A stretch of DNA of 47,510 bases from an uncultured Anaerolineales bacterium (lineage in GTDB: Bacteria > Chloroflexota > Anaerolineae > Aggregatilineales > Aggregatilineaceae): the NCBI GenBank assembly GCA_937135955.1, contig CAKZOB010000023.1:1-47510 (forward strand), given 5' to 3'. Of the stretch, positions 13,853 to 38,459 are shown piece by piece. The position numbers and the translations under genes were made by a program. Numbering within the stretch: position 1 is the first letter of the stretch; each line of letters starts with the position of its first letter. The notes beneath the pieces are model-generated. The model did not search any database and was not told the origin of the DNA. It saw nothing but the letters and a program-made list of their open reading frames with translations.

Positions 13853-15301
13853 CTAATACATCGCCCCGCGCCAGACCGCATCCAGCGTTTGCAGCGTCAC
13901 CAGGTTACGCATGGTGTAGCCCGTCGAGAGATAGGGTGCAGTCAGGTAACAGGACGTGCCATAGGGCGGCTCGCCCAGGTGAAAACCGTCCGGCTCCAGC
14001 CCATGATTGGGCAGCGATTCCAGCGCCAGCCACAGGTTGATCAGCGGGATGTTGTAGTCCAGAGCGATACGCACCACGATCTGATTGTAGAGGATGGTGC
14101 GATCCCAGAAGCCCCGGTTGCCGGGAAATGTGCTGAGGATAGGGATCACGCCAGCCTCGATGGTCTTGTCCACTATCTCCCGCATGTAGTGATCGAACTC
14201 ACCGGGCGTCATCACCAGCAGGTCGCTGGTGCCGAACATGATGATCGCCACGCTGGGCCGGTGAATACGGAATTCGCACTCCAGGGGCGATTCGCCCGGC
14301 TGACATACCGCGGGGTTGGCCCACTCTGGCGCGATCACGGCGTTGGCGTTGAAGCCGTTGTGCGTCGCCTCGCTATCGTAGGCCAGCGACTCGCCGAAAT
14401 GATTGATCACCGCCTGCAGGTAGCCGTAGCCGCCCAGATTGTATTGGCCCCAGGCGAACGGGTTGAGGAAATACCAGTGCTCGGACGAGCAGTCACCCAC
14501 CTTGGCCACCACATGGGGGTTGTTGCCCCTGGCCCGTCCGTCCAGGAAAATCTGGCGTGCGCGGCCCGTCGCCCGCCCCACCACCGGGTAGGCGGTCAGG
14601 TCTATGCCCGCCACCGTAGAAAGGTCAAAGCCGCCGAGGGGAATACCTGCGTAGGACGCTTCGGCAGCAGGCGCGGCGGGTGCTGCCCTCGCACCGGCGG
14701 GCAAAATCTCGTCGCTCAGCGGCAGGCTGAAGGCGCTCCCTCCGCTGAACTTCAAGTACAGGCTCGCCAGCCAGCCGCGCAGCGCCCCATCCTGCGTATG
14801 CGCCAGCACCCACGAGGCATCGCCATTGCGAGCTTCCGGGATCAGCACCGTGCCCGGTCTCACCTGACCCAGCACGCTATGTCCCGTGCCCGGCCCGGCC
14901 CGCACGTTCATCTGATAGCGGGGCGTGGCCGTTAGCCCCTCCGGCGCGGGCGCGGCGGCCTGCGGCGCGGCAGGCGCGGCCCCGCCGATGATCTCTTCGC
15001 TAATGGGCAGCAGCGCCGCGCTAACTCCCGGCGCATATTTCAGGTACAGGCTGGCCACCCAGCCGCGCTGCGCCCCGTCCAGAGTATGTGCCAGCAGCCA
15101 GGACGTATCGGCGTTACGGGCCTCCAGGGTCAGCGCGGTGCCAGCGGGCAGGGTGACGATCACCGCGAAGCCCGTGCCGGGGCCGGTGCGCATGTTCAAC
15201 TGGTAGGCAGTGCTGGCGTCGCCCCCCTGGGCATGGGCCAGCGGGCCGATCGGCGCGATCAACAGCAGGGCGAGCGCCAGAATTGCAATTCGACGAAGCA
15301 T
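13853..15301 (-). CDS. Secreted protein: two SH3 domains plus a degenerate SGNH-hydrolase domain
   Basis: Exported by a Sec signal peptide (residues 1-24, ending AHA). Two bacterial SH3 repeats follow at about 31-90 (LNMRTGPGTG ... GWVASLYLKY) and 127-185 (MNVRAGPGTG ... GWLASLYLKF), which usually bind cell-wall glycan. From about 245 comes an SGNH/GDSL domain: block I reads G269-D-C-S-S, block III FGTSD, block V DGFH. The paralogue at 36633-38459 has GDSIS, FGTND and DGVH at the same places, so here the nucleophile Ser is Cys and the block III Asn is Ser. It may be inactive or altered. Start is ATG 15301, seven bases after AGGAGG; a GTG two codons upstream would touch that sequence. Length 482. 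Confidence 0.88.
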   Translation of the reverse strand: MLRRIAILALALLLIAPIGPLAHAQGGDASTAYQLNMRTGPGTGFAVIVTLPAGTALTLEARNADTSWLLAHTLDGAQRGWVASLYLKYAPGVSAALLPISEEIIGGAAPAAPQAAAPAPEGLTATPRYQMNVRAGPGTGHSVLGQVRPGTVLIPEARNGDASWVLAHTQDGALRGWLASLYLKFSGGSAFSLPLSDEILPAGARAAPAAPAAEASYAGIPLGGFDLSTVAGIDLTAYPVVGRATGRARQIFLDGRARGNNPHVVAKVGDCSSEHWYFLNPFAWGQYNLGGYGYLQAVINHFGESLAYDSEATHNGFNANAVIAPEWANPAVCQPGESPLECEFRIHRPSVAIIMFGTSDLLVMTPGEFDHYMREIVDKTIEAGVIPILSTFPGNRGFWDRTILYNQIVVRIALDYNIPLINLWLALESLPNHGLEPDGFHLGEPPYGTSCYLTAPYLSTGYTMRNLVTLQTLDAVWRGAMY

Positions 15302-17571: not shown

Positions 17572-18435
17572 TCAAGGTAGAGTGAAGAGAGTGTCCGTGC
17601 GAGGTTGGCTATCGGGATGAAACGATAGCACATAGTCAATCAACGTGTTGAGTTGGCGATCGGGGATATCCTCATGGGTGAAAGCATCCATATCTTCCGG
17701 GCCATCGCGCACGGTCTTGGCAATCTTTATGGCGTTCAACGCCTCTAGAGCCGGGGCGTCTTCAGTTCCCCTCCCTCGTTGACCGTGGCACTCTTCGCAG
17801 AATTGTTTGTAAAGCTGTCGCCCACTCATGCCGTCGGTGGGGTGGGGACTCGGTGGATCATAGGGGAATTCGGAACCCGTCAACACCATCACTGTCTCTG
17901 GGCCCTGCTGCTCAGCCGAACCCGCCAGCGACTCAGTGTCATCGGCTATCGGCTGGTGATCCGCCGGGTTCTCCTGGAGAGCAGATGCCGCCGCCAAGGT
18001 CATCTCTTCTTCCGGAATCATATCCAGGGCCTCTACGCGGACTGCAACCTCATCCCAGGAGCCAACCTTGAGGACTGCGATCAGGCTTTCGATTTGCTGC
18101 CGGTTCAAAGACCCTCCCTCGTCGAGATGAAAGGCTCTCATATCGGTATTGTCTCGTCCACGCGCAATCACTTTGTATAACCAGCTTTCATCCTGGCCAC
18201 GGATGTACTCCTGGTCGAGCTTGCTGGCCCCCTCCTGAATCTCACCCTGCCCACGCGAACCATGACATTCTGCACAATGGAGAGCGTACAGGTCCATGCC
18301 GCGCATTAGGGCTTGTTTTTGTTGTCTGGCCCTGGCTTCTGTCTGTCGTGCTGGTTCCCTGAGCGCGATGATGGTCACTATCAATATGACTACAACGTTG
18401 AGGATAATCCCAACCCGAGCTATTCGCTGTGTCAT
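17572..18435 (-). CDS. Membrane-anchored dihaem cytochrome c of a bc-type complex
   Basis: Electron acceptor subunit of the quinol-oxidising complex encoded upstream. One helix at about 10-26 anchors it; the rest is outside the membrane. Haem sites are C54-A-E-C-H58 and C213-E-E-C-H217, each in a small cytochrome-c domain (about 45-125 and 205-280) with Met candidates for the sixth ligand (Met99, and the Met in PEDMDAF). An acidic linker of about 70 residues joins the domains. The start is ATG 18435, five bases after the Rieske stop; a TTG 21 bases upstream would overlap the Rieske gene. Length 287. Third and last gene of the b-Rieske-c set. Base composition is lower in GC than in most of the window. 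Confidence 0.9.
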   Translation of the reverse strand: MTQRIARVGIILNVVVILIVTIIALREPARQTEARARQQKQALMRGMDLYALHCAECHGSRGQGEIQEGASKLDQEYIRGQDESWLYKVIARGRDNTDMRAFHLDEGGSLNRQQIESLIAVLKVGSWDEVAVRVEALDMIPEEEMTLAAASALQENPADHQPIADDTESLAGSAEQQGPETVMVLTGSEFPYDPPSPHPTDGMSGRQLYKQFCEECHGQRGRGTEDAPALEALNAIKIAKTVRDGPEDMDAFTHEDIPDRQLNTLIDYVLSFHPDSQPRTDTLFTLP

Positions 18436-18440
18436 ATCGC

Positions 18441-18965
18441 TCACTCGCCAGACCAATACGTGACATCATCAGGGCTAACGTGGATACGTTCAACCAAATG
18501 ACCTGTGTCAACTTCAATCTCGGTGGCGCTTATGTTGAGGTGAAACCGTCCCAGGGGACGTAACGCAGGTGTATTCAGCACAGCGCCGGTTCGATCGAAC
18601 CGCGAGCCATGACAGGGGCACACAAAGCTGCCCTCCTCATCATCCCAGGACACTACACAGGCCAGATGGGTGCACTTGAGGTGCAGCGCCAGAAAACCGC
18701 CATCGTCCAGGCGCACTAAAGCCAAACGCGCTTCGGGAAACAAGGTGAGCGTGCCTGGGGAAAAATCATCTGGCCGTCCGACAGCAATAGTTGTGCCAGC
18801 TGGGTTATCTGCTCTGCGCGATCCCCAATAACGGAGTGCCACCAGTATCCCCTCGCCTGCGGTGAGCACTCCCAGTCCCAACCATATCTTCCTCAGAAAG
18901 CTTCTCCGTGAGAACTTACTGTCTGCTGAAAGCTCCTGCTCTGCCAGTTGAGGCTTACTGATCAT
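18441..18965 (-). CDS. Rieske 2Fe-2S protein of a bc-type complex
   Basis: Takes the first electron from quinol in the cytochrome bc complex. The twin Arg-Arg-Ser-Phe-Leu at 20-24 followed by a hydrophobic helix (about 27-46) is a Tat-type membrane anchor, as usual for Rieske proteins. Cluster ligands are Cys98 and His100 in CTHLAC and Cys116 and His119 in CPCHGSRFD, with Cys103 and Cys118 placed for the disulphide. The ATG follows the cytochrome b stop with no gap, and GGGAGG lies five bases ahead of it. Length 174 residues, typical. Confidence 0.95.
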   Translation of the reverse strand: MISKPQLAEQELSADSKFSRRSFLRKIWLGLGVLTAGEGILVALRYWGSRRADNPAGTTIAVGRPDDFSPGTLTLFPEARLALVRLDDGGFLALHLKCTHLACVVSWDDEEGSFVCPCHGSRFDRTGAVLNTPALRPLGRFHLNISATEIEVDTGHLVERIHVSPDDVTYWSGE

Positions 18966-20336
18966 CTATACCTCCCAAGGCCACATTAGAGCCATGTTCT
19001 GGCCTCGAAAGAAAAGGCCGATCGCAGTCAGCGTGACGAAAGCCGCGAACAGCAGCGAAAACAGCGCCATGTTGCTCTCGCTGGCAGTAGCACCATGTGC
19101 CCGTAATGCGAGCCGGAAAATAAACAATCCCAGTAAAGTAGCGAGCAGCGGGATGAGACCGGTGCTGATGCTGTTTGGCAAGAAAGATAGCAGGCTGGGT
19201 AGATCAAGCCAGTATTCGTCTATTACTACCATCAGTGTCGTCCAAACAGTGCCAACCAGCAGGCCCAGCCCAGCCAACCGACGCCCACGCGCCGATCGAA
19301 ACCAGATTCCGGTCACGTTCGGGTCTCGGTCGGGGTCGAAGTCGAGGTAGGGCAACAGCACCAGCGCAAGCAGTGTGAGCGCGGGGATCACAAACGAAGC
19401 GTAAACGGGGTGAAAGTGCAGTAGCAATTCCTGGAAACCTACAAAATACCAGGCAGCTTTGGCCGGGTTGGGTGGGTGATGCGGATCCGCACTCTCAAGT
19501 AGCGGCGCATTAACTGTGCCTGACCATAACAGCAGCAGTGCCAGAACTATCAATCCACCGGTAACCTCCAGCACTACCAGATGGGGAACCGTCGTCACGT
19601 ACTTGAGCTGCCGCTTAGTGGGGGGATCCTCGTCCACTGCGCGGGGAATGCTGATCGTATCTTTGCGGACGCGCCAGATATGGAAGGCAACGATGACGAA
19701 TATGCTGAAGGGCAGGACAGATATATGAAACGCAAAGAAATTGCGCAGCGTGCTTGCACCCACTTCCGGTCCACCCAGCACAGCTCGCCTGATGGCTGGC
19801 CCTGCAAGAGGAATATAATCGAGCATGCTTGTGACGATGGTGACCGCCCAATATGAGAGCTGATCCCAGGGCAGCAAGTAGCCAGAGAAATTTGCCCCGG
19901 CCACCAGCAGCAATAGAGCTAGGCCAAGCACCCAGTTGAACTCACGGGGATGGTGGAAAGCGGCTGTATAAAAGACGCGCAGCATATGCAAAACAACCAG
20001 GATCAACAGCAGATTGGCGCTCCAATGGTGCAAATTGCGCACAAACTGTCCCAACCATATTTCGGTCTGGAGAGTCTCAATACTCTTGTGTGCCTGATCG
20101 GGCGTAGGGGTATAAGCGAACAGCAACAGCGCCCCTGTGATCGCCAACACACCTAACAGCAGGATACTCAGACCGCCCAGCCCAAAGGTGTAGGTCACTT
20201 TGAGCGCGCGGAGTGGAACCGTGGTTGGATGCAAATGTAGCAGCAGATCATTAAGCACCAGTTTCATTCGACCCTGATCGTCGGTTGGCCAGGTCATACG
20301 CCAGATAGAACGGCGAATTCTATTCAAGAGGTTCAT
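18966..20336 (-). CDS. Cytochrome b of a bc-type complex (b6 and subunit IV fused)
   Basis: Quinol-oxidising, proton-translocating core of the complex. Helix B carries His103 and His117; helix D carries His204 and His219. The helix D pair is 15 apart, the b6f-like spacing, against 14 in mitochondrial-type bc1. The PWD stretch (LPWDQLSYWA) is at about 155-164. The Qo motif PEWY is replaced by PAKAAWYF (291-298), a form related to the PAKAPWYF of many menaquinol enzymes. The C-terminal helices of subunit IV are fused, giving 456 residues. I start at ATG 20336 (MNLLNRIRR); the longer frame adds 26 residues with no family resemblance, running into the upstream hairpin. First of the b, Rieske, c set. 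Confidence 0.93.
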   Translation of the reverse strand: MNLLNRIRRSIWRMTWPTDDQGRMKLVLNDLLLHLHPTTVPLRALKVTYTFGLGGLSILLLGVLAITGALLLFAYTPTPDQAHKSIETLQTEIWLGQFVRNLHHWSANLLLILVVLHMLRVFYTAAFHHPREFNWVLGLALLLLVAGANFSGYLLPWDQLSYWAVTIVTSMLDYIPLAGPAIRRAVLGGPEVGASTLRNFFAFHISVLPFSIFVIVAFHIWRVRKDTISIPRAVDEDPPTKRQLKYVTTVPHLVVLEVTGGLIVLALLLLWSGTVNAPLLESADPHHPPNPAKAAWYFVGFQELLLHFHPVYASFVIPALTLLALVLLPYLDFDPDRDPNVTGIWFRSARGRRLAGLGLLVGTVWTTLMVVIDEYWLDLPSLLSFLPNSISTGLIPLLATLLGLFIFRLALRAHGATASESNMALFSLLFAAFVTLTAIGLFFRGQNMALMWPWEV

Positions 20337-20400
20337 AGGCAACCACCGGTCTTGAGAGTAACTAGACGCAATGATGATGGGATGCAAACCAACACGAGGA

Positions 20401-20434
20401 GAACAGCCCGGCATGACTCGCTGCCGGGCTGTTC
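20401..20434 (-). terminator. Strong hairpin between phoX-like gene and cytochrome b
   Basis: A 13-base perfect stem, GAACAGCCCGGCA / TGCCGGGCTGTTC, with an 8-base loop, 17 bases after the phoX-like stop. No T-run follows on the minus strand, so it may be a partial terminator or an RNA-stabilising element separating phoX from the bc genes. Confidence 0.65.
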
Positions 20435-29785: not shown

Positions 29786-31204
29786 ATGTCCCTGACGCAT
29801 ATCCTGGTCTTCGCCGTCCTCATCCTGCTGACCACGATCACACTGCCGGTGCGCTGGCGGCAATGGGCGCTGTTCGTTGGCAGTGTGCTGGCCATCTACT
29901 GGTTGCAGCCCGCCCTGACCATCCGCCGCCTGGACTTCCTCTTCCCCACCGCCACGCTGGCCCTGGTGGTCGCAGGCTGGCTGGCGACGCGCGCGCCCGG
30001 TCAAGCCGTGACCCGCGCTGATCGCCTGGCTGCCCTGCTGATCGCCGCCCTGGTGCTGGTGCTCTCGTTCGGGCGCTACCTGGTGCCCGCCTACCGCCTG
30101 ACGCCTTCGGCTCCGCCGCCTGTCCTTCCGGTGGCGTTGGGGCTGGCTGGCGCGGGAGTGGTGCTGCTGGCGCTGAGCCGAGTGCGCGACAACTGGCTGA
30201 GGCTGGCGCTGACCGTGGGCGTGTTGGCGCTCTTCGCTGTGCTCAAGACAGAGGCGCTGGGCACAGCGGCCAGCCGCCTGTTGCGAAGCTGGCAGGGCCA
30301 GACGACGCAACTCGCCCGCGCCGATGAACTCTCGTGGCTGGGCTTTTCGTATGTGGTGTTTCGGCTGCTGCACACCCTGCGCGACCGGCAGACCGGTCAA
30401 CTGCCCGCCCTGACGCTGCGCGAATACATCACCTATGCCATCTTCTTCCCGGCCTTCACCGCCGGGCCGATTGACCGGGCCGAGCGCTTCCTGAACGACC
30501 TGCGCGCGCTGCCCCCGCTGGACGCGACGCGCTTTGTACACGGGGGGATGCGCCTGGCAGTGGGCATCGGCAAGAAATTCGTCATCGCCGATAGCCTGGC
30601 GCTGCTGGCGCTCAACGTCACCAACGCGCAACAGGCGCAGTCGGCGGCGGGGCTGTGGGTGCTGCTCTACGCCTACGCCTTCCAGCTCTACTTTGACTTC
30701 AGCGGCTACACCGACATCGCCATCGGCCTGGGGCAGTGGTGCGGCATCCGCCTGCCGGAGAACTTCAGTCAACCCTATCTCAAGCGCAATATCACCGTCT
30801 TCTGGCAAAGCTGGCATATCACGCTCAGTCAGTGGGTGCGCTCCTACGTCTTCCTGCCGCTCAGCCGCACTCTGCTCACCCGCCCGCGTAAGCCTTCGCC
30901 GACCGTCCTGGCGCTGATCGGCCAACTGGCAACCATGTTGGCCATCGGGCTGTGGCACGGCGTGACCTGGGGCTTCGTCGTGTGGGGGCTGTGGCATGGC
31001 GTGGGGCTATTCGTCCACAAAGTCTACAGCGACCGCACCCGTCCCTATTACCTGCGCCTGCGCCAGCATCCCCGCCTGGGGCGGGCGGTAGAAGTCGCCG
31101 GTATCGCCCTTACTTTCCATTTCGTGGTGCTGGGGTGGGTGTGGTTCGCCCTGCCCGACCTGGCGATCAGTTGGGACGTATTCGTCCGGCTGTGGAGGTG
31201 GTGA
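29786..31204 (+). CDS. MBOAT-family membrane O-acyltransferase (DltB/AlgI-like)
   Basis: Membrane enzyme that carries acyl (usually acetyl) groups across the membrane for transfer to an extracellular polymer. It has about ten to twelve helices in 472 residues. MBOAT landmarks: FPAFTAGPIDRAERF (about 217-231), YFDFSGYTDIAIGLG, LPENFSQPYLKRNITVFWQSWHITLSQWVRSYVF in pieces, and the active-site His391 in GLWHGVTWGF. It is followed after three bases by an SGNH-type protein, the arrangement seen in AlgI/AlgJ and DltB/DltD pairs. No strong ribosome site precedes the ATG; a TAGAAT at 29741-29746 may be its -10. The acceptor is probably an exopolysaccharide made with the window's GT-C-like enzymes. 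Confidence 0.9.
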   Translation: MSLTHILVFAVLILLTTITLPVRWRQWALFVGSVLAIYWLQPALTIRRLDFLFPTATLALVVAGWLATRAPGQAVTRADRLAALLIAALVLVLSFGRYLVPAYRLTPSAPPPVLPVALGLAGAGVVLLALSRVRDNWLRLALTVGVLALFAVLKTEALGTAASRLLRSWQGQTTQLARADELSWLGFSYVVFRLLHTLRDRQTGQLPALTLREYITYAIFFPAFTAGPIDRAERFLNDLRALPPLDATRFVHGGMRLAVGIGKKFVIADSLALLALNVTNAQQAQSAAGLWVLLYAYAFQLYFDFSGYTDIAIGLGQWCGIRLPENFSQPYLKRNITVFWQSWHITLSQWVRSYVFLPLSRTLLTRPRKPSPTVLALIGQLATMLAIGLWHGVTWGFVVWGLWHGVGLFVHKVYSDRTRPYYLRLRQHPRLGRAVEVAGIALTFHFVVLGWVWFALPDLAISWDVFVRLWRW

Positions 31205-31207
31205 GCG

Positions 31208-32398
31208 GTGACAACCTGGCACTGGCTCTACGCCGCCGCTCCGCCCTACCGCTGGCGCTTCGTCGCCCGCGTGCTGTTCAAGACGGCGCTGCTGTTCGTG
31301 GCGCTCAACCTGCTGTGTGTGGCGGTGAATCCGCTGCCCACCCTGGGCAGGCTCTCGGCCTACAATCGCCTTTTTGCCGGGCGACCGCGCCTGCCCTATG
31401 GCGAAAACCCCGCTGTGGCCTACAACCTGAGCCTGTTCCAGCTCGAAGCCATGTTCGCCGCGCACGAGGTGGCCCGTCCACCGCGCGGGGACGAATTCCG
31501 CGTGGTGCTGATCGGCGATTCGTCGGTGTGGGGCATCCTGCTACGGCCAGAGGAGACGCTCGCCGGGCAACTCAACGCGGCGGGGCTGCGCACTGCCGAT
31601 GGGCGACGGGTGCGCATCTACAACCTGGGCTACCCCACCATGTCGCTGACCAAAGACCTGCTGCTGCTCGACTACGCGCGGCGCTACCAGCCCGACCTGA
31701 TCGTCTGGTTGTTCACCCTGGAGTCGTTCGATCAGCGCGCGCAGCTCGATCCGGCGTTGCTGCAACACAATCCGGAGCCGGTGCGCCGCCTGATCGTCCG
31801 CTATGGCCTGGCCCAGCGGACAGACGACCCGCGTTTTGTCTCGCTCTCCTGGCGGGACAAGACCCTCATCGGGCGACGGCGCGCGCTGGCCGACCTGCTG
31901 CGCCTGCAACTCTACGGCGTGCCCTGGGCGGTGACAGGGATTGACCAGGAATACCGCGACGACTACACGCCGCGCGCCGTAGACCTGCCCGCCGACCGTA
32001 CCTGGCACGGCCTGACGGAAGACCTCTTCACCCCCGCCGACCTGGTCTTCGACGTGTTGCGGGCCGGGGTGACGCTGGCGGGCGATACGCCGATCCTGCT
32101 GGTCAACGAGCCGATGCTGATCAGCCGGGGCGCGAACAGCGACATCCGCTACAACTCGTTCTACCCGCGCTGGGCCTACGACGCCTATCGGCAGTGGCTG
32201 CATCAGGAGAGCGAGCGCCAGGGCTGGGCGCTGCTCGATCTGTGGGACGCGCTGCCCGACGCGGCCTGCTACACCGACAGCGCGGTGCACCTGACGCCTG
32301 TCTGTGCGGGGCAGTTGGCGGCGTCGCTGGGGCCGGAGATCGTGCGTCTGGCGAGCAGCGCTGCGGGCGAAGGGGAGCGCTCGCACGGGAGACAGTAA
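31208..32398 (+). CDS. SGNH-hydrolase-type acyltransferase partner of MBOAT
   Basis: Likely the extracytoplasmic protein that transfers the acyl group to the polymer, like AlgX/AlgJ or DltD. One N-terminal helix (about 22-42) anchors it outside. Block I is G103-D104-S105 in LIGDSSVWG, and the block V pair is Asp357/His361 in DSAVHLTP. The start is GTG 31208 behind GGAGGTG, which overlaps the MBOAT stop. The last about 12 residues (AAGEGERSHGRQ) and the TAA are encoded by a copy of repeat D, so the natural C-terminus was probably replaced or extended. Length 396. Confidence 0.87.
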   Translation: MTTWHWLYAAAPPYRWRFVARVLFKTALLFVALNLLCVAVNPLPTLGRLSAYNRLFAGRPRLPYGENPAVAYNLSLFQLEAMFAAHEVARPPRGDEFRVVLIGDSSVWGILLRPEETLAGQLNAAGLRTADGRRVRIYNLGYPTMSLTKDLLLLDYARRYQPDLIVWLFTLESFDQRAQLDPALLQHNPEPVRRLIVRYGLAQRTDDPRFVSLSWRDKTLIGRRRALADLLRLQLYGVPWAVTGIDQEYRDDYTPRAVDLPADRTWHGLTEDLFTPADLVFDVLRAGVTLAGDTPILLVNEPMLISRGANSDIRYNSFYPRWAYDAYRQWLHQESERQGWALLDLWDALPDAACYTDSAVHLTPVCAGQLAASLGPEIVRLASSAAGEGERSHGRQ

Positions 32399-34517: not shown

Positions 34518-36236
34518 CTACCAGTTGCGCGTGCCGGTGTAGTAGTAGACGTGCTGACAGTTCGGCTCGCTGGCCAGCACCAGCCGCATGACCATGTTGA
34601 TCGTCGTCTCGCTGGTGAAGGTCAGCGTCATCGAGACGGTGCCCGTGCCCAGCACATTCGGCCCGCTGTAGGCGTAGACGTTGGGCTGAATGCGCGTCAG
34701 GTAGTAGGGGCTGGCTTCCATCCCTTTCCACGAGATGCCGCCCGCGACGGGCGCGATCGCCGCCAGGTGATCGCAGAAGTTGATAGCGGGCGCGCCCGAA
34801 CACTCGCCGGTCATGTTGTCGCTGCCGGGGCGCATCTGCCAGACGGAATTGCCCGCCGGCGCGAAGTCCACCCCCGTTTCAGGCGCAGCGCCCCCCTCAG
34901 CGGGAGCGGCGGGCGGAGCGAAGACCAGCGGCGGCGGTTCGACCTGGGCCACCGCCTGGCACGCGCCGATGGCTCGCACGTCTGCCTGCGCCACCCACGA
35001 TGGTTGTGTGCCTGTGTCCAGTTGCCACCAGGGCGCGCCGTCGGGATCGCTGGCCCAGCCCAGCACGCTGTAGCTGGCCGTCGGTGACATGCTGGCCAGC
35101 ACGCCGCGTTGCATCCCCGGCCCCACGCGCAGGGTCACCGAAGCGGGCGTGACCAGCCCCACCGTACACGCCACCTCCTGCGGTAACAAGGCCAGCGGCG
35201 CGTAGGCCACCTCGGCAAAGGGGTAGGAGCGCTCTACAGAGGGGATGGCGGTGGGCGTCAGGCCGTCGTCGCCGCCCAAGGGCACGCGCGCCGCCTGTCC
35301 TGTGCTCACCTCCTGGGCGATGCCGCGCGCTGTCACCATCACCGAACCGGCCAGGGCGCGTACGCGCAACGCCTCGCCCGGCGTCGCCGTGACCAGCAGC
35401 GTCGCCCCGGAGAATTCCAACCCGGTCTGGTTGATCTGCAGTTGCGCGGGCTGCTCGCCGCTGTATTGCAGCAGCAGGCCAGACGGTGTCTCGGCGCAGG
35501 CCGCCTCGCCAGTCGAGAGCGTCAGGGCGGCGAATGGCGCAGCGGGTGGCTCGACGGGAGTGACATCACTGGGTAGCAATACGGTCAGCGCATCGGGTGC
35601 ACCCTGATCGCCCTCCCAGCCGATCAAGGGGGTGAAGACCCAGGCGATCCCGCCCGCGTACTGCAGGCGCAGCCAGTCGCCCTGCTCGTTGCGCCCGTCG
35701 GCCAGCGCGGCTTCGCCCGGCGCGAGCTGCCCCACCACCTGATAGGTAATGCCCGCGCCGTTGCGCAGGTTGATCGGCGCATTCCCCCGGTTGAACACTG
35801 GCAGCGTGGGCCGTTCGGCGACTGTCACAGGCGGGCGGGCAACCGTCGCCTGGCCAAAGAGGGCGGCGGTGACCATACCCCCTTCGCCAGCGGGCAGCGC
35901 CAGCACTGCCAGTCCCCACGCTCCGCCTGCGGGATCGGCGGCGGTCATCACCGCGTCGAGCGCTTCCAGCGTGCCGCGGTCGCCAGCCTGGACGGACAGC
36001 GCGTCGCTCGCACCAACGGGTCGGACGGACACCTGATCATAGCCGTAGCACACTTCACCGGCGGTCAGACCGCTGCAGAATACTGTAGCTTCGGCCAGGG
36101 CCTGTTCGGCAAGCTGTGCGCAGCTCTGATCGCCCTGCGCGTGTGCCCGCCACGACACCGGCCACATGCCCGCCAGCCCGACCGCAGCCAGGCTCATCAG
36201 CAACCATCCCGCGTGAATCCAACGCTTACGACCCAT
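34518..36236 (-). CDS. Secreted SH3-domain protein of unknown function
   Basis: A 572-residue exported protein. The start is ATG 36236 behind AGGAGGG; the longest frame adds 28 unlikely residues. A signal sequence follows (MGRKRWIHAGWLLMSLAAVG ... RAHAQG). Two SH3-like segments are seen: NLRNGAGITYQVVGQLAPGE... WVFTPLIGW (about 168-220) and VTLRVGPGMQRGVLASMSPT... WVAQADVRAIG (about 400-455). Between them is a FecR-like stretch (LEFSGATLLVTATPGEALRVRAL... GSVMVTARG). The C-terminal about 110 residues form an unassigned beta-rich domain with several Cys. It is in line with the SH3/SGNH lipoprotein upstream but separated by repeats, so not clearly one operon. Confidence 0.83.
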   Translation of the reverse strand: MGRKRWIHAGWLLMSLAAVGLAGMWPVSWRAHAQGDQSCAQLAEQALAEATVFCSGLTAGEVCYGYDQVSVRPVGASDALSVQAGDRGTLEALDAVMTAADPAGGAWGLAVLALPAGEGGMVTAALFGQATVARPPVTVAERPTLPVFNRGNAPINLRNGAGITYQVVGQLAPGEAALADGRNEQGDWLRLQYAGGIAWVFTPLIGWEGDQGAPDALTVLLPSDVTPVEPPAAPFAALTLSTGEAACAETPSGLLLQYSGEQPAQLQINQTGLEFSGATLLVTATPGEALRVRALAGSVMVTARGIAQEVSTGQAARVPLGGDDGLTPTAIPSVERSYPFAEVAYAPLALLPQEVACTVGLVTPASVTLRVGPGMQRGVLASMSPTASYSVLGWASDPDGAPWWQLDTGTQPSWVAQADVRAIGACQAVAQVEPPPLVFAPPAAPAEGGAAPETGVDFAPAGNSVWQMRPGSDNMTGECSGAPAINFCDHLAAIAPVAGGISWKGMEASPYYLTRIQPNVYAYSGPNVLGTGTVSMTLTFTSETTINMVMRLVLASEPNCQHVYYYTGTRNW

Positions 36237-36319
36237 CGCTCGCCCTCCTGTCTTTGCTCTCAAAACCTTGTTCGGTAAGTTTCTCCGACCAGCCGCGCCC
36301 GGCAAAGTCTCACGATCCA

Positions 36320-36347
36320 ATCATAACGGTTTCGCTCTGTCCGTCCA
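36320..36347 (-). promoter_or_regulatory. Possible promoter of the secreted SH3 protein gene
   Basis: On the minus strand TGGACG (36347-36342) and TATGAT (36325-36320) are 16 bases apart, 84 bases before the ATG at 36236. Confidence 0.4.
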
Positions 36348-36632: not shown

Positions 36633-38459
36633 CTACGGGTAGGGCACGACCCAGTCTTCGCTGCTCGTGCCGCTGGCTGTCCAGCCGATCAGCCCGTTGT
36701 AGTTGACCTGCCACCACAGATAGCCGTCGGCACAGCGTGGCCCGCCAATCACCGCGAAGACGGCGTCACCGGGGATGCTGCCGATGGCCGCCGCGCTGGT
36801 CGAAGGGGCGCTGCGCACCTTGTTGGGCAGGCCGGGCGTCACGCGCCCCTGCCCGCCGACCGTCAGACGCGGCGGCGGCACCCCCAGGCAGGCCGGATCG
36901 TTGAGATCGCCGGGCGCGCCGCCTGCCGGTGAGGTTGGCGGCAGGGCGGTGGCTGGCCGCACCTGATCGGCGTCGTAGAGCACTTGTTGCCAGAGGGTGT
37001 AGAGCACCTGCAGAGCGGTCAGGTTGCGCACTGTGTAACCATAGCGCAGGTGCTCGGCGTCGAAGATGGTCGTCAGACCGTCCGGCGGGGCAGAGGGGTG
37101 CACGCCGTCGGGGGCCAGGCCGTTGTTGGGCAGGGCGACCATCGCCTGGTAGTAGTCCCACAGAGGGATGTCGTAGGCGCGGGCCGTGGCGATGATCACC
37201 TGGTTGAATTCGGCCACGCGGCCATCGGTGGCCGGATTGTAGCGCTTGGGCGGGATGGTGCTCAGGACGGGGATCACACCCATGCTGATCGAAGTCTGCA
37301 CGATGGCCTGCAGGTTGGCCTGGAAGGTCGCCGTCGGCATCCCCCCGGAATCGTTGGTGCCGAACATGATCAGCGCCACCGCGGGGCGGGTCAGGCGATA
37401 TTCGCAGGCGAGCGGCGTTTCGCCCGCCCGGCAGACACTGGGATCAGCATTGGCCGGGTCGAGCACGCTCGCGGTGCTCCAGCCATTGCGCGCTGCCAGC
37501 GACGCCGCGGAGAAGGGGTTGGCTCCGCGCCCGTTGGGGCCGGAGAAGAAGCTGATCGCCGTGCTCAGGTAGCCGTAGTCGCCCAGCCGATAGGTGCCGC
37601 TGCCAATAGGCGTCAGAAATTGCGGCGCAGCGCTGATGCTGTCCCCCACCCTGGTGAAGCTGTGCGGTAGATTGCCTTTGGCCAGGCCGTCGAGCAGGAT
37701 GCGCCGCGCGTTGGCGGATACGCCCGATACCACGCCCGCTGTGTTGGCGACGGCAGTCGGGGCATCCTGCGCCGCGCCGGTCACGCTGAGCACGTTCAGA
37801 TCAATGCGCAGCGTCAGGTATTGCGCGGCTACCCAACCGCTAGAGCCGTCGGGCAGCACCACCTGCACCCAGGCGTTGTCCGCCGTGCGCCCGATGACCG
37901 ACAGCGGCAGATCGGCGGGCAGCAGGGTGAGCACCTGCCCCGCCGTGCCCGGACTGGCGCGCAGCCGCAGATTGGCGCATGTGGAACAGACCTGTGCCGC
38001 CGGTAGCGCGGTGGGCAGAGGCGTGTTGGTGGCGGCCATGGCTGGCGTGAACGACGGCGGCGGGGTCATGGTGGGCGGTGGGACGGTCAGCGTGGGCGCG
38101 GCGGTCAGCGTCGGGAAGACAACTACCGCAGGGGTCAGCGTCGGCGCGACGATGGGCGAAGGGATGGTGAACGGCGTCCGCGTCGTCGTGGGCGAGAGAG
38201 TCGGCGGGGCCTGCTTGGTCGGCGCGGCGACGAGCGCCGTCACCGTGGGAGAGGGAGCAGGCCGCGTCGGCCGCAGGGTCGCGGTGACCACCAGCACGAA
38301 GGGGGTCTCTGTGGGGCGGGCAGTGGCCCAGGGGATGGGCGGGCCGAGCGTGGGACGGCGCGCGGCTTCTTCCTCGCCGCCCAGGCTGAAGTTGCAACCG
38401 GTCAGCACCAGGCTGATCAAGACCGCGATCAGGGCCGTCAGCCCTCTGTTCCCCGTCAT
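36633..38459 (-). CDS. Lipoprotein with SH3 and SGNH-hydrolase domains
   Basis: Surface lipoprotein: lipobox L-T-G-C22 after a short hydrophobic signal. A Pro/Thr-rich stalk (about 35-165) follows, then an SH3 domain (CANLRLRASPGTAGQVLTLL ... GWVAAQYLTL), then an SGNH domain with block I VGDSIS, block III FGTNDSG and block V DGVHPS, all catalytic residues kept. A second SH3-like domain closes the protein (SAPSTSAAAIGSIPGD... GLIGWTASG). Probably an esterase or acetylesterase acting on cell-wall or exopolysaccharide substrate. It is a paralogue of the product of 13853-15301, which lacks the nucleophile. The start is ATG 38459 behind GGGAGGG; a TACAAT at 38515-38510 may be its -10. Length 608. 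Confidence 0.9.
   Translation of the reverse strand: MTGNRGLTALIAVLISLVLTGCNFSLGGEEEAARRPTLGPPIPWATARPTETPFVLVVTATLRPTRPAPSPTVTALVAAPTKQAPPTLSPTTTRTPFTIPSPIVAPTLTPAVVVFPTLTAAPTLTVPPPTMTPPPSFTPAMAATNTPLPTALPAAQVCSTCANLRLRASPGTAGQVLTLLPADLPLSVIGRTADNAWVQVVLPDGSSGWVAAQYLTLRIDLNVLSVTGAAQDAPTAVANTAGVVSGVSANARRILLDGLAKGNLPHSFTRVGDSISAAPQFLTPIGSGTYRLGDYGYLSTAISFFSGPNGRGANPFSAASLAARNGWSTASVLDPANADPSVCRAGETPLACEYRLTRPAVALIMFGTNDSGGMPTATFQANLQAIVQTSISMGVIPVLSTIPPKRYNPATDGRVAEFNQVIIATARAYDIPLWDYYQAMVALPNNGLAPDGVHPSAPPDGLTTIFDAEHLRYGYTVRNLTALQVLYTLWQQVLYDADQVRPATALPPTSPAGGAPGDLNDPACLGVPPPRLTVGGQGRVTPGLPNKVRSAPSTSAAAIGSIPGDAVFAVIGGPRCADGYLWWQVNYNGLIGWTASGTSSEDWVVPYP

Follow-up and report, generated by a model that had tools for sequence, protein, structure and literature searches.

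The window, as we call the 47,510-nucleotide stretch of DNA from an uncultured Anaerolineales bacterium analysed here, encodes a protein with cysteine at the position where SGNH enzymes carry the serine that defines them. The reading we favor, with a probability of about 0.57, is that this protein is an extracytoplasmic SGNH acyltransferase with a Cys nucleophile, that it acts in a Dlt-like pathway, and that it comes from a clade made by a Ser-to-Cys switch with several later reversions. The Dlt system decorates Gram-positive cell walls, using DltA, DltB, DltC, DltD and DltX for the D-alanylation of teichoic acids. Several computed observations carry the argument: the site is restricted to Cys or Ser, the active-site histidine is retained, the domain has the SGNH fold, C271 has no conserved disulfide partner, and the genes of the family are linked to Dlt-like genes.

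The gene occupies 13853..15301 on the minus strand and encodes 482 amino acids from an ATG start, on which our residue numbering is based; a GTG start two codons further upstream could also be used. A hydrophobic N-terminus is followed by two SH3_3 domains, the better scorer at residues 132-184 (14750..14908, minus strand), and by an SGNH domain that reaches 30.9 bits against Pfam PF13472, below the gathering cut-off of 32.9. With SGNH/GDSL hydrolases (PF13472; TesA, acetyl xylan esterases, CE3) this domain has in common the fold and the positions of blocks I, II and V. The block II Gly is present as G316, and the Asp-x-x-His of block V is kept as D438-G-F-H441 (DGFH; 13979..13990, minus strand, placed by alignment). 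Unlike those hydrolases, it has C271 in place of the block I nucleophile Ser (GDC; TGC codon at 14489..14491, minus strand, placed by alignment and structure offsets) and S359 in place of the block III oxyanion Asn of canonical members (FGTSD; codon at 14225..14227, minus strand, placed by alignment). A paralogue at 36633..38459 on the minus strand, by eye a putative lipoprotein, reads GDS, FGTND and DGVH. The original prediction had described these two SH3/SGNH proteins as sharing an architecture and differing in the motifs just listed, and this is correct on both counts, as each combines two SH3_3 domains with SGNH motifs. It had also considered that another Ser, at 272 or 273, might be the true nucleophile. 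The alignment offers no such alternative; residue 272 is variously Met, Asn, Gln, Ser and others among Cys members.

The domain is matched seven times in the source genome: the window's Cys protein and Ser paralogue, three further GDC copies (contigs C4, C86 and C44), and two degenerate copies, one reading GDD (C60) and one with a deletion (C62). In the degenerate copies (G000:C60:51247-52029 and G000:C62:341-1078; loci L055 and L007) the nucleophile is gone, together with the block II Gly and DxxH, and in the C60 copy the oxyanion motif as well. When added to a FastTree phylogeny, both attach to the Cys clade, where local support is weak.

Modeling of both window proteins, which the original prediction had proposed, gave confident results. 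The AlphaFold2 model of residues 215-482 (13856..14659, minus strand), built with 106 sequences, has a mean pLDDT of 96.1 and a pTM of 0.93 and adopts the SGNH fold; the model of the Ser paralogue reaches 92.4 and 0.87. Compared with known structures by VIA-align, the Cys-protein model gave Z scores of 15.3-18.1 among the 50 matches listed, and the SGNH structures matched include 1yzf (18.1), an acetyl xylan esterase (17.9), TesA entries (about 16) and the acetyltransferase PatB (8tlb, 15.6). By the printed range offsets, model residue 57, which is C271, pairs with E. coli TesA residue 10, the nucleophile Ser10 of that enzyme; in 5b5l, whose title names the mutant S10A, the corresponding position is 10, and in 4jko, whose title names the catalytic mutant Axe2_S15A, it is 15. 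Read in this way from alignment ranges, on the assumption of no gap in the first ten residues, C271 would sit at the nucleophile position of TesA, TcAE206 and Axe2.

Whether the Cys is conserved among homologues had been posed as a check, and it proved to be no one-off. At E 1e-10 the family matches in 69 of 101 genomes, comprising the source genome and its relatives; 142 places were retrieved among the matches listed, and the set yielded 148 non-redundant domains, of which 109 have Cys, 37 Ser and 2 another state. Of 400 genomes searched across the phylum, 28 have a match: besides the source genome, one is from the same order, 25 further ones belong to its class and one lies beyond the class. 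A scan of named genomes added 76 loci, mostly titled Anaerolineae or Chloroflexi, with a few from Myxococcales, Archangium, Deltaproteobacteria, Actinobacteria, Patescibacteria and Auribacterota; these outsiders have Ser wherever the motif is readable, and the new rows as a whole comprise 51 Cys, 51 Ser and one gap. The final alignment holds 242 family domains, mostly from Anaerolineae-type Chloroflexota, selected for Cys (158) or Ser (84) at column 271, a ratio that is not a natural frequency because the family was sought mainly with Cys queries. Rows shorter than 195 letters, duplicates, the two degenerate copies of the source genome and fragments gapped at column 271 were left out. The Cys clade is seen so far in Anaerolineae-type Chloroflexota.

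We built trees by a quick search method with the nucleophile columns excluded. A first tree of 146 rows needs five state changes between Cys and Ser, at least three of them forced by starred branches; the larger tree of 242 rows needs eight, with at least six so forced. Rooted on the Myxococcales, Archangium and Deltaproteobacteria rows, the larger tree has Ser as the ancestral state and gathers all 158 Cys domains, together with 32 Ser domains, into a single clade of 190 rows (SH-aLRT 99), whose immediate sister is Ser. Cys gains without any loss would require 19 changes. On the aligned sequences, the 32 Ser members of the clade are most simply reversions from Cys, the count of which is made uncertain by the quick search, several weak deep branches and some long rows. 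Cys is encoded by TGC or TGT and Ser mostly by AGC or AGT, so that a single base lies between the two states. Within the clade, column 271 is among 13 columns with at most two residue types, of 225 columns filled in at least 170 rows. Residue N/D422 seemed to covary with the Cys/Ser state, and independent pairs gave no support for this.

In relatives, Cys-SGNH genes lie in operons that resemble dlt. Among 20 loci, chosen after shorter versions had revealed operon genes in several of them, eight (L268-L273, L277 and L278) carry on one strand a small lipoprotein gene followed by genes for a DltX-like microprotein, an MBOAT protein, a DltD-like protein, a Cys-SGNH, an acyl carrier protein (ACP) and a ligase, with a second Cys-SGNH ahead of the ligase in L278. 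The MBOAT was not detected in L274. Three loci (L275, L276 and L286) have MBOAT, DltD-like and Cys-SGNH without ACP and ligase, L287 has the Cys-SGNH between MBOAT and DltD-like, and the remaining seven (L279-L285) showed none of MBOAT, ACP and ligase. A locus from the window's own order (L264) reads MBOAT, DltD-like, Cys-SGNH, ACP and ligase, and L039, in which the subclade of the window protein occurs, has a same-strand run of three Cys-SGNH genes (GDCISDN, GDCSTEH and GDCNSTE), MBOAT and DltD-like. The carriers show the motif G[LM][IV]DSF in 15 of the 18 listed, and three of the four tested reach the PF00550 cut-off. The L043 ligase, the only ligase run against NCBIfam, matches acyl-CoA and fatty-acyl-AMP ligase models best, all below their cut-offs. 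The DltD-like neighbors keep Ser in 25 of 27 distinct copies, which are all those with a readable motif, and serve as a fold control.

The search for the DltX-like component, for which a hydrophobic segment and then [WFY]xYxxF at the C-terminus were required, covered 2.32 Mb of sequence (288 loci and the window). All 25 distinct matches lie less than 200 bases from an MBOAT gene (24, including L176 and L215, in which the match is the end of the MBOAT itself) or a ligase gene (one, in the source genome). Microproteins ending in W-[IL]-Y-Q-G-F stand directly upstream of the MBOAT gene in L268-L273, L275-L278, L286, L287, L264, L226, L021, L255 and others.

Across the wider set the linkage is to the family. 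A gene for MBOAT, DltD-like, ACP or ligase lies within 1.5 kb of 30 of the 123 Cys genes with enough flank to be counted and of 12 of 60 Ser genes; since Ser genes have such neighbors too, the link to the pathway is not specific to Cys, and the ratio between the two groups is biased by loci having been picked partly for their operons. For ACP or ligase the counts are 16 of 123 and 4 of 60. The ligase (E 1e-120) is matched in 59 genomes, once in 56 of them and twice in G019, G044 and G055; given this near single-copy state, we estimate chance neighbors at well under one. Proximity to MBOAT genes, taken alone, is modest: of the 105 such genes listed, 14 have one of the 144 family places no more than 20 kb away. 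Family and ligase occur together in 56 of the 101 genomes, the family alone in 13 and the ligase alone in 3 (72 with either), a co-occurrence that is confounded by shared ancestry.

The window has part of this set. A DltB-like MBOAT gene (PF03062) at 29786..31204 and a DltD-like SGNH gene with Ser (GDSSVW ... TDSAVH) at 31208..32398, both on the plus strand, form an MBOAT-SGNH pair (29786-32398) as in Dlt. The sole NCBIfam match of the MBOAT is TIGR04091 DltB, at 226.2 bits against a cut-off of 375. An SH3_3 protein gene at 34518..36320 on the minus strand, given as a stop-to-stop frame, has homologues that adjoin Cys-SGNH genes in relatives, and a LysM protein gene also lies in the window. 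The Cys-SGNH gene is 15.6 kb from the MBOAT gene, and the ACP (C41:25285-25500) and the ligase (C68:19003-20676, with a DltX-like microprotein beside it) are on other contigs. The source genome has all the Dlt-like parts, but scattered, and the window protein would work with them at a distance.

From these parts the following route can be proposed. The acyl-AMP ligase would load an acyl group onto the carrier protein, and the DltB-like MBOAT would carry it through the membrane and hand it to the DltX-like microprotein, on its Tyr. Next to receive it would be the DltD-like SGNH, the Cys-SGNH or both. With its own His as activator, the Cys-SGNH would keep the acyl group as a thioester and pass it on to an acceptor at the cell surface, probably a glycan to which the SH3 modules bind; a role in glycan binding may be read from the SH3_3 domains. 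A thioester would favor transfer over loss to water.

The active-site residues bear on whether the protein is an enzyme at all. His441 is kept in 149 of the 158 Cys members and in all 84 Ser members. Cys members keep the block II Gly in 151 cases, Asp438 in 123 (35 have lost it) and the oxyanion Asn in 84 (74 have lost it). Ser members outside the clade have Asn, Asp and His in 52 of 52 each and Gly in 49, and those inside it have His in 32 of 32, Asp in 31 and Asn in 16. In one studied SGNH lipase, replacing Ser, Asn or His by Ala leaves the enzyme inactive (PMC10779480). The drift of Asn and Asp in Cys members would fit a pseudoenzyme, in which the SGNH domain has become a glycan-binding or scaffold module, the Ser paralogue beside it is the active one and the Cys is a leftover that does no harm; the SH3_3 modules suggest surface binding, and a Ser family gene often neighbors a Cys gene (24 of 123, within 1.5 kb). 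A relaxed site, however, should admit Ala, Gly, Thr and other residues, and the 190 clade rows hold only Cys or Ser. The His is retained, the exchange between Cys and Ser has been repeated, and the two degenerate copies in the source genome lost their nucleophile, block II Gly and DxxH together. We therefore regard a pseudoenzyme as unlikely, though well worth keeping in view. A thiolate may depend less on such help than an alkoxide, in which case Cys and His lacking a strict Asp or Asn would be expected. As the pathway would already have spent ATP on loading the acyl group, of which a thioester would waste less on water, we prefer a thiol acyltransferase. The original prediction had left a Cys nucleophile with a modified oxyanion hole and a pseudoenzyme side by side; the Cys/Ser-only site, the retained His, the exchanges (at least six) and the Dlt-like neighbors now favor the former. 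Where it had seen a single odd protein, the family shows a large class to which that protein belongs and in which loss of the oxyanion Asn is common. Counting against a thiol enzyme are the drifting Asn and Asp, the nine members that have lost the His, the inactive Ala variants of the lipase, the distance of the window gene from the other Dlt-like parts, the majority of tested Cys genes that have no Dlt-like neighbor, the Ser genes that do have one, the seven loci without MBOAT, ACP or ligase, the genomes with family or ligase alone, the two degenerate paralogues and the risk of oxidation that an extracellular free thiol runs.

Two further roles for the Cys were weighed. C271 might be structural, redox-active or metal-binding, in a disulfide, an intermolecular bridge or a metal site: it is a highly conserved Cys in an exported protein (a loose test finds a hydrophobic N-terminal stretch in 152 of 158 Cys members), and the fourth Cys of the window protein, C452, lies shortly past DGFH and might pair with it. 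Yet a Cys occurs at the C452 column in just 13 of 109 Cys members in the smaller set and 13 of 158 in the larger, and a conserved partner for C271, sought in alignments of the Cys members, was not found. C333 and C342 are invariant in the 158 Cys members and in the 32 clade Ser members as well, and so presumably pair with each other without C271. After the N-terminal 35 residues, an odd number of Cys is found in 77% of the 158 Cys members and 18% of the 84 Ser members, and this, with the repeated exchange for Ser, makes a structural role the most improbable of those considered. Alternatively, the Cys could be acylated by the DltB-like system and hold the chain as an extracellular shuttle or lipid anchor with no onward catalysis, a close cousin of the thiol acyltransferase reading. 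The place of the gene in the operon, between those for the DltD-like protein and the ACP, speaks for such a carrier, as does the loss of the block III G-x-N-D in operon members (L158-L160, L163, L165 and L167, for example), and the part of a study that treats DltX provides a precedent for a covalent shuttle residue in such systems (PMC12148441). A mere carrier would not need the His that most members keep, and we give this alternative only a slim chance.

As a thiol acyltransferase, the protein would extend known systems. Like Dlt, the operons of relatives hold an adenylating ligase, a carrier, a DltB-like MBOAT, a WIYQGF DltX-like microprotein and a DltD-like SGNH; unlike Dlt, they contain an extra Cys-SGNH, and the L043 ligase resembles fatty-acyl ligases, if below cut-offs. 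The DltX Tyr, in an F-x-Y-x-x-F end where the WIYQGF microproteins have W for the first F, ferries the acyl group between DltB and DltD, according to the sections of that study on such motifs (PMC12148441). PatAB and AlgI/J/X O-acyltransferases likewise join an MBOAT to an extracytoplasmic SGNH, and PatB is among the structural matches above; in PatAB/AlgI-type systems, the same sections state, the donor is acyl-CoA and a Tyr motif is fused to the C-terminal end of the MBOAT (PMC12148441), whereas the window MBOAT has no C-terminal FxYxxF and ends in ...WDVFVRLWRW. Thiol-subtilisin and subtiligase carry the same Ser-to-Cys swap in a serine hydrolase of another fold; there the swap is engineered, and here it is natural and the transfer putative. 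The acyl-enzyme thioester of thiol-subtilisin is described, in the passages concerned, as relatively more prone to attack by amine than by water (PMC7921005).

The SGNH superfamily and the logic of Dlt are already known. We found no description of a Cys-nucleophile SGNH or a natural Cys clade, of a Dlt-like set with an acyl-AMP ligase, or of Anaerolineae MBOAT/SGNH systems in the open-access literature searched, and the 'cysteine' and 'Cys' passages of a 2022 SGNH review hold no Cys-nucleophile SGNH (PMC9487903). More broadly, and at somewhat less than even odds, natural thiol SGNH acyltransferases, born of one ancestral Ser-to-Cys switch and several reversions, might add an extracellular step to a complete Dlt-like pathway of Anaerolineae-type Chloroflexota, through which surface glycans would receive fatty or other carboxylic acyl groups rather than D-alanine. 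If the thiol acyltransferase reading is true, the protein is a natural counterpart, in the SGNH fold, of the subtiligase trick. A large clade that lives with Cys and repeatedly returns to Ser would amount to an experiment of nature in exchanging nucleophiles and in turning a hydrolase into a transferase. The Dlt-like operons suggest a Chloroflexota cell-surface acylation not found described in the literature searched, and the full gene set is named here for rebuilding.

Some smaller observations accompany these. A scan of viral contigs gave no confirmed relative and phage records gave none; plasmid records gave one, from Leptolinea sp. HRD-7 (L288; AP024711.1, 29674-30372), a distant homologue of 36% identity, annotated as hypothetical and near glycosyltransferase genes. 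In the window, a cytochrome b, a Rieske-type protein and a c-type cytochrome, recognized by eye, stand in a row on the minus strand at 17572-20414. An N-terminal S-x-Y-N-x-x-x-x-G-R motif occurs in 23 of the 28 DltD-like frames listed (31208-32398 of the window and its homologues). A small, conserved lipoprotein-like gene of about 129 amino acids adjoins GDCM-type Cys-SGNH genes (L037, L038, L041, L043, L047, L150-L153, L199, L210 and others) and also stands upstream of the MBOAT gene in operons; the two copies tested have no Pfam match. In L199, L203, L207, L208, L210 and L221, a GDCMTEN or GDCMTDN Cys-SGNH is paired with a GDSNSQH or GDSNSAS Ser-SGNH, and the lipoprotein gene lies between or overlaps the two on the other strand.
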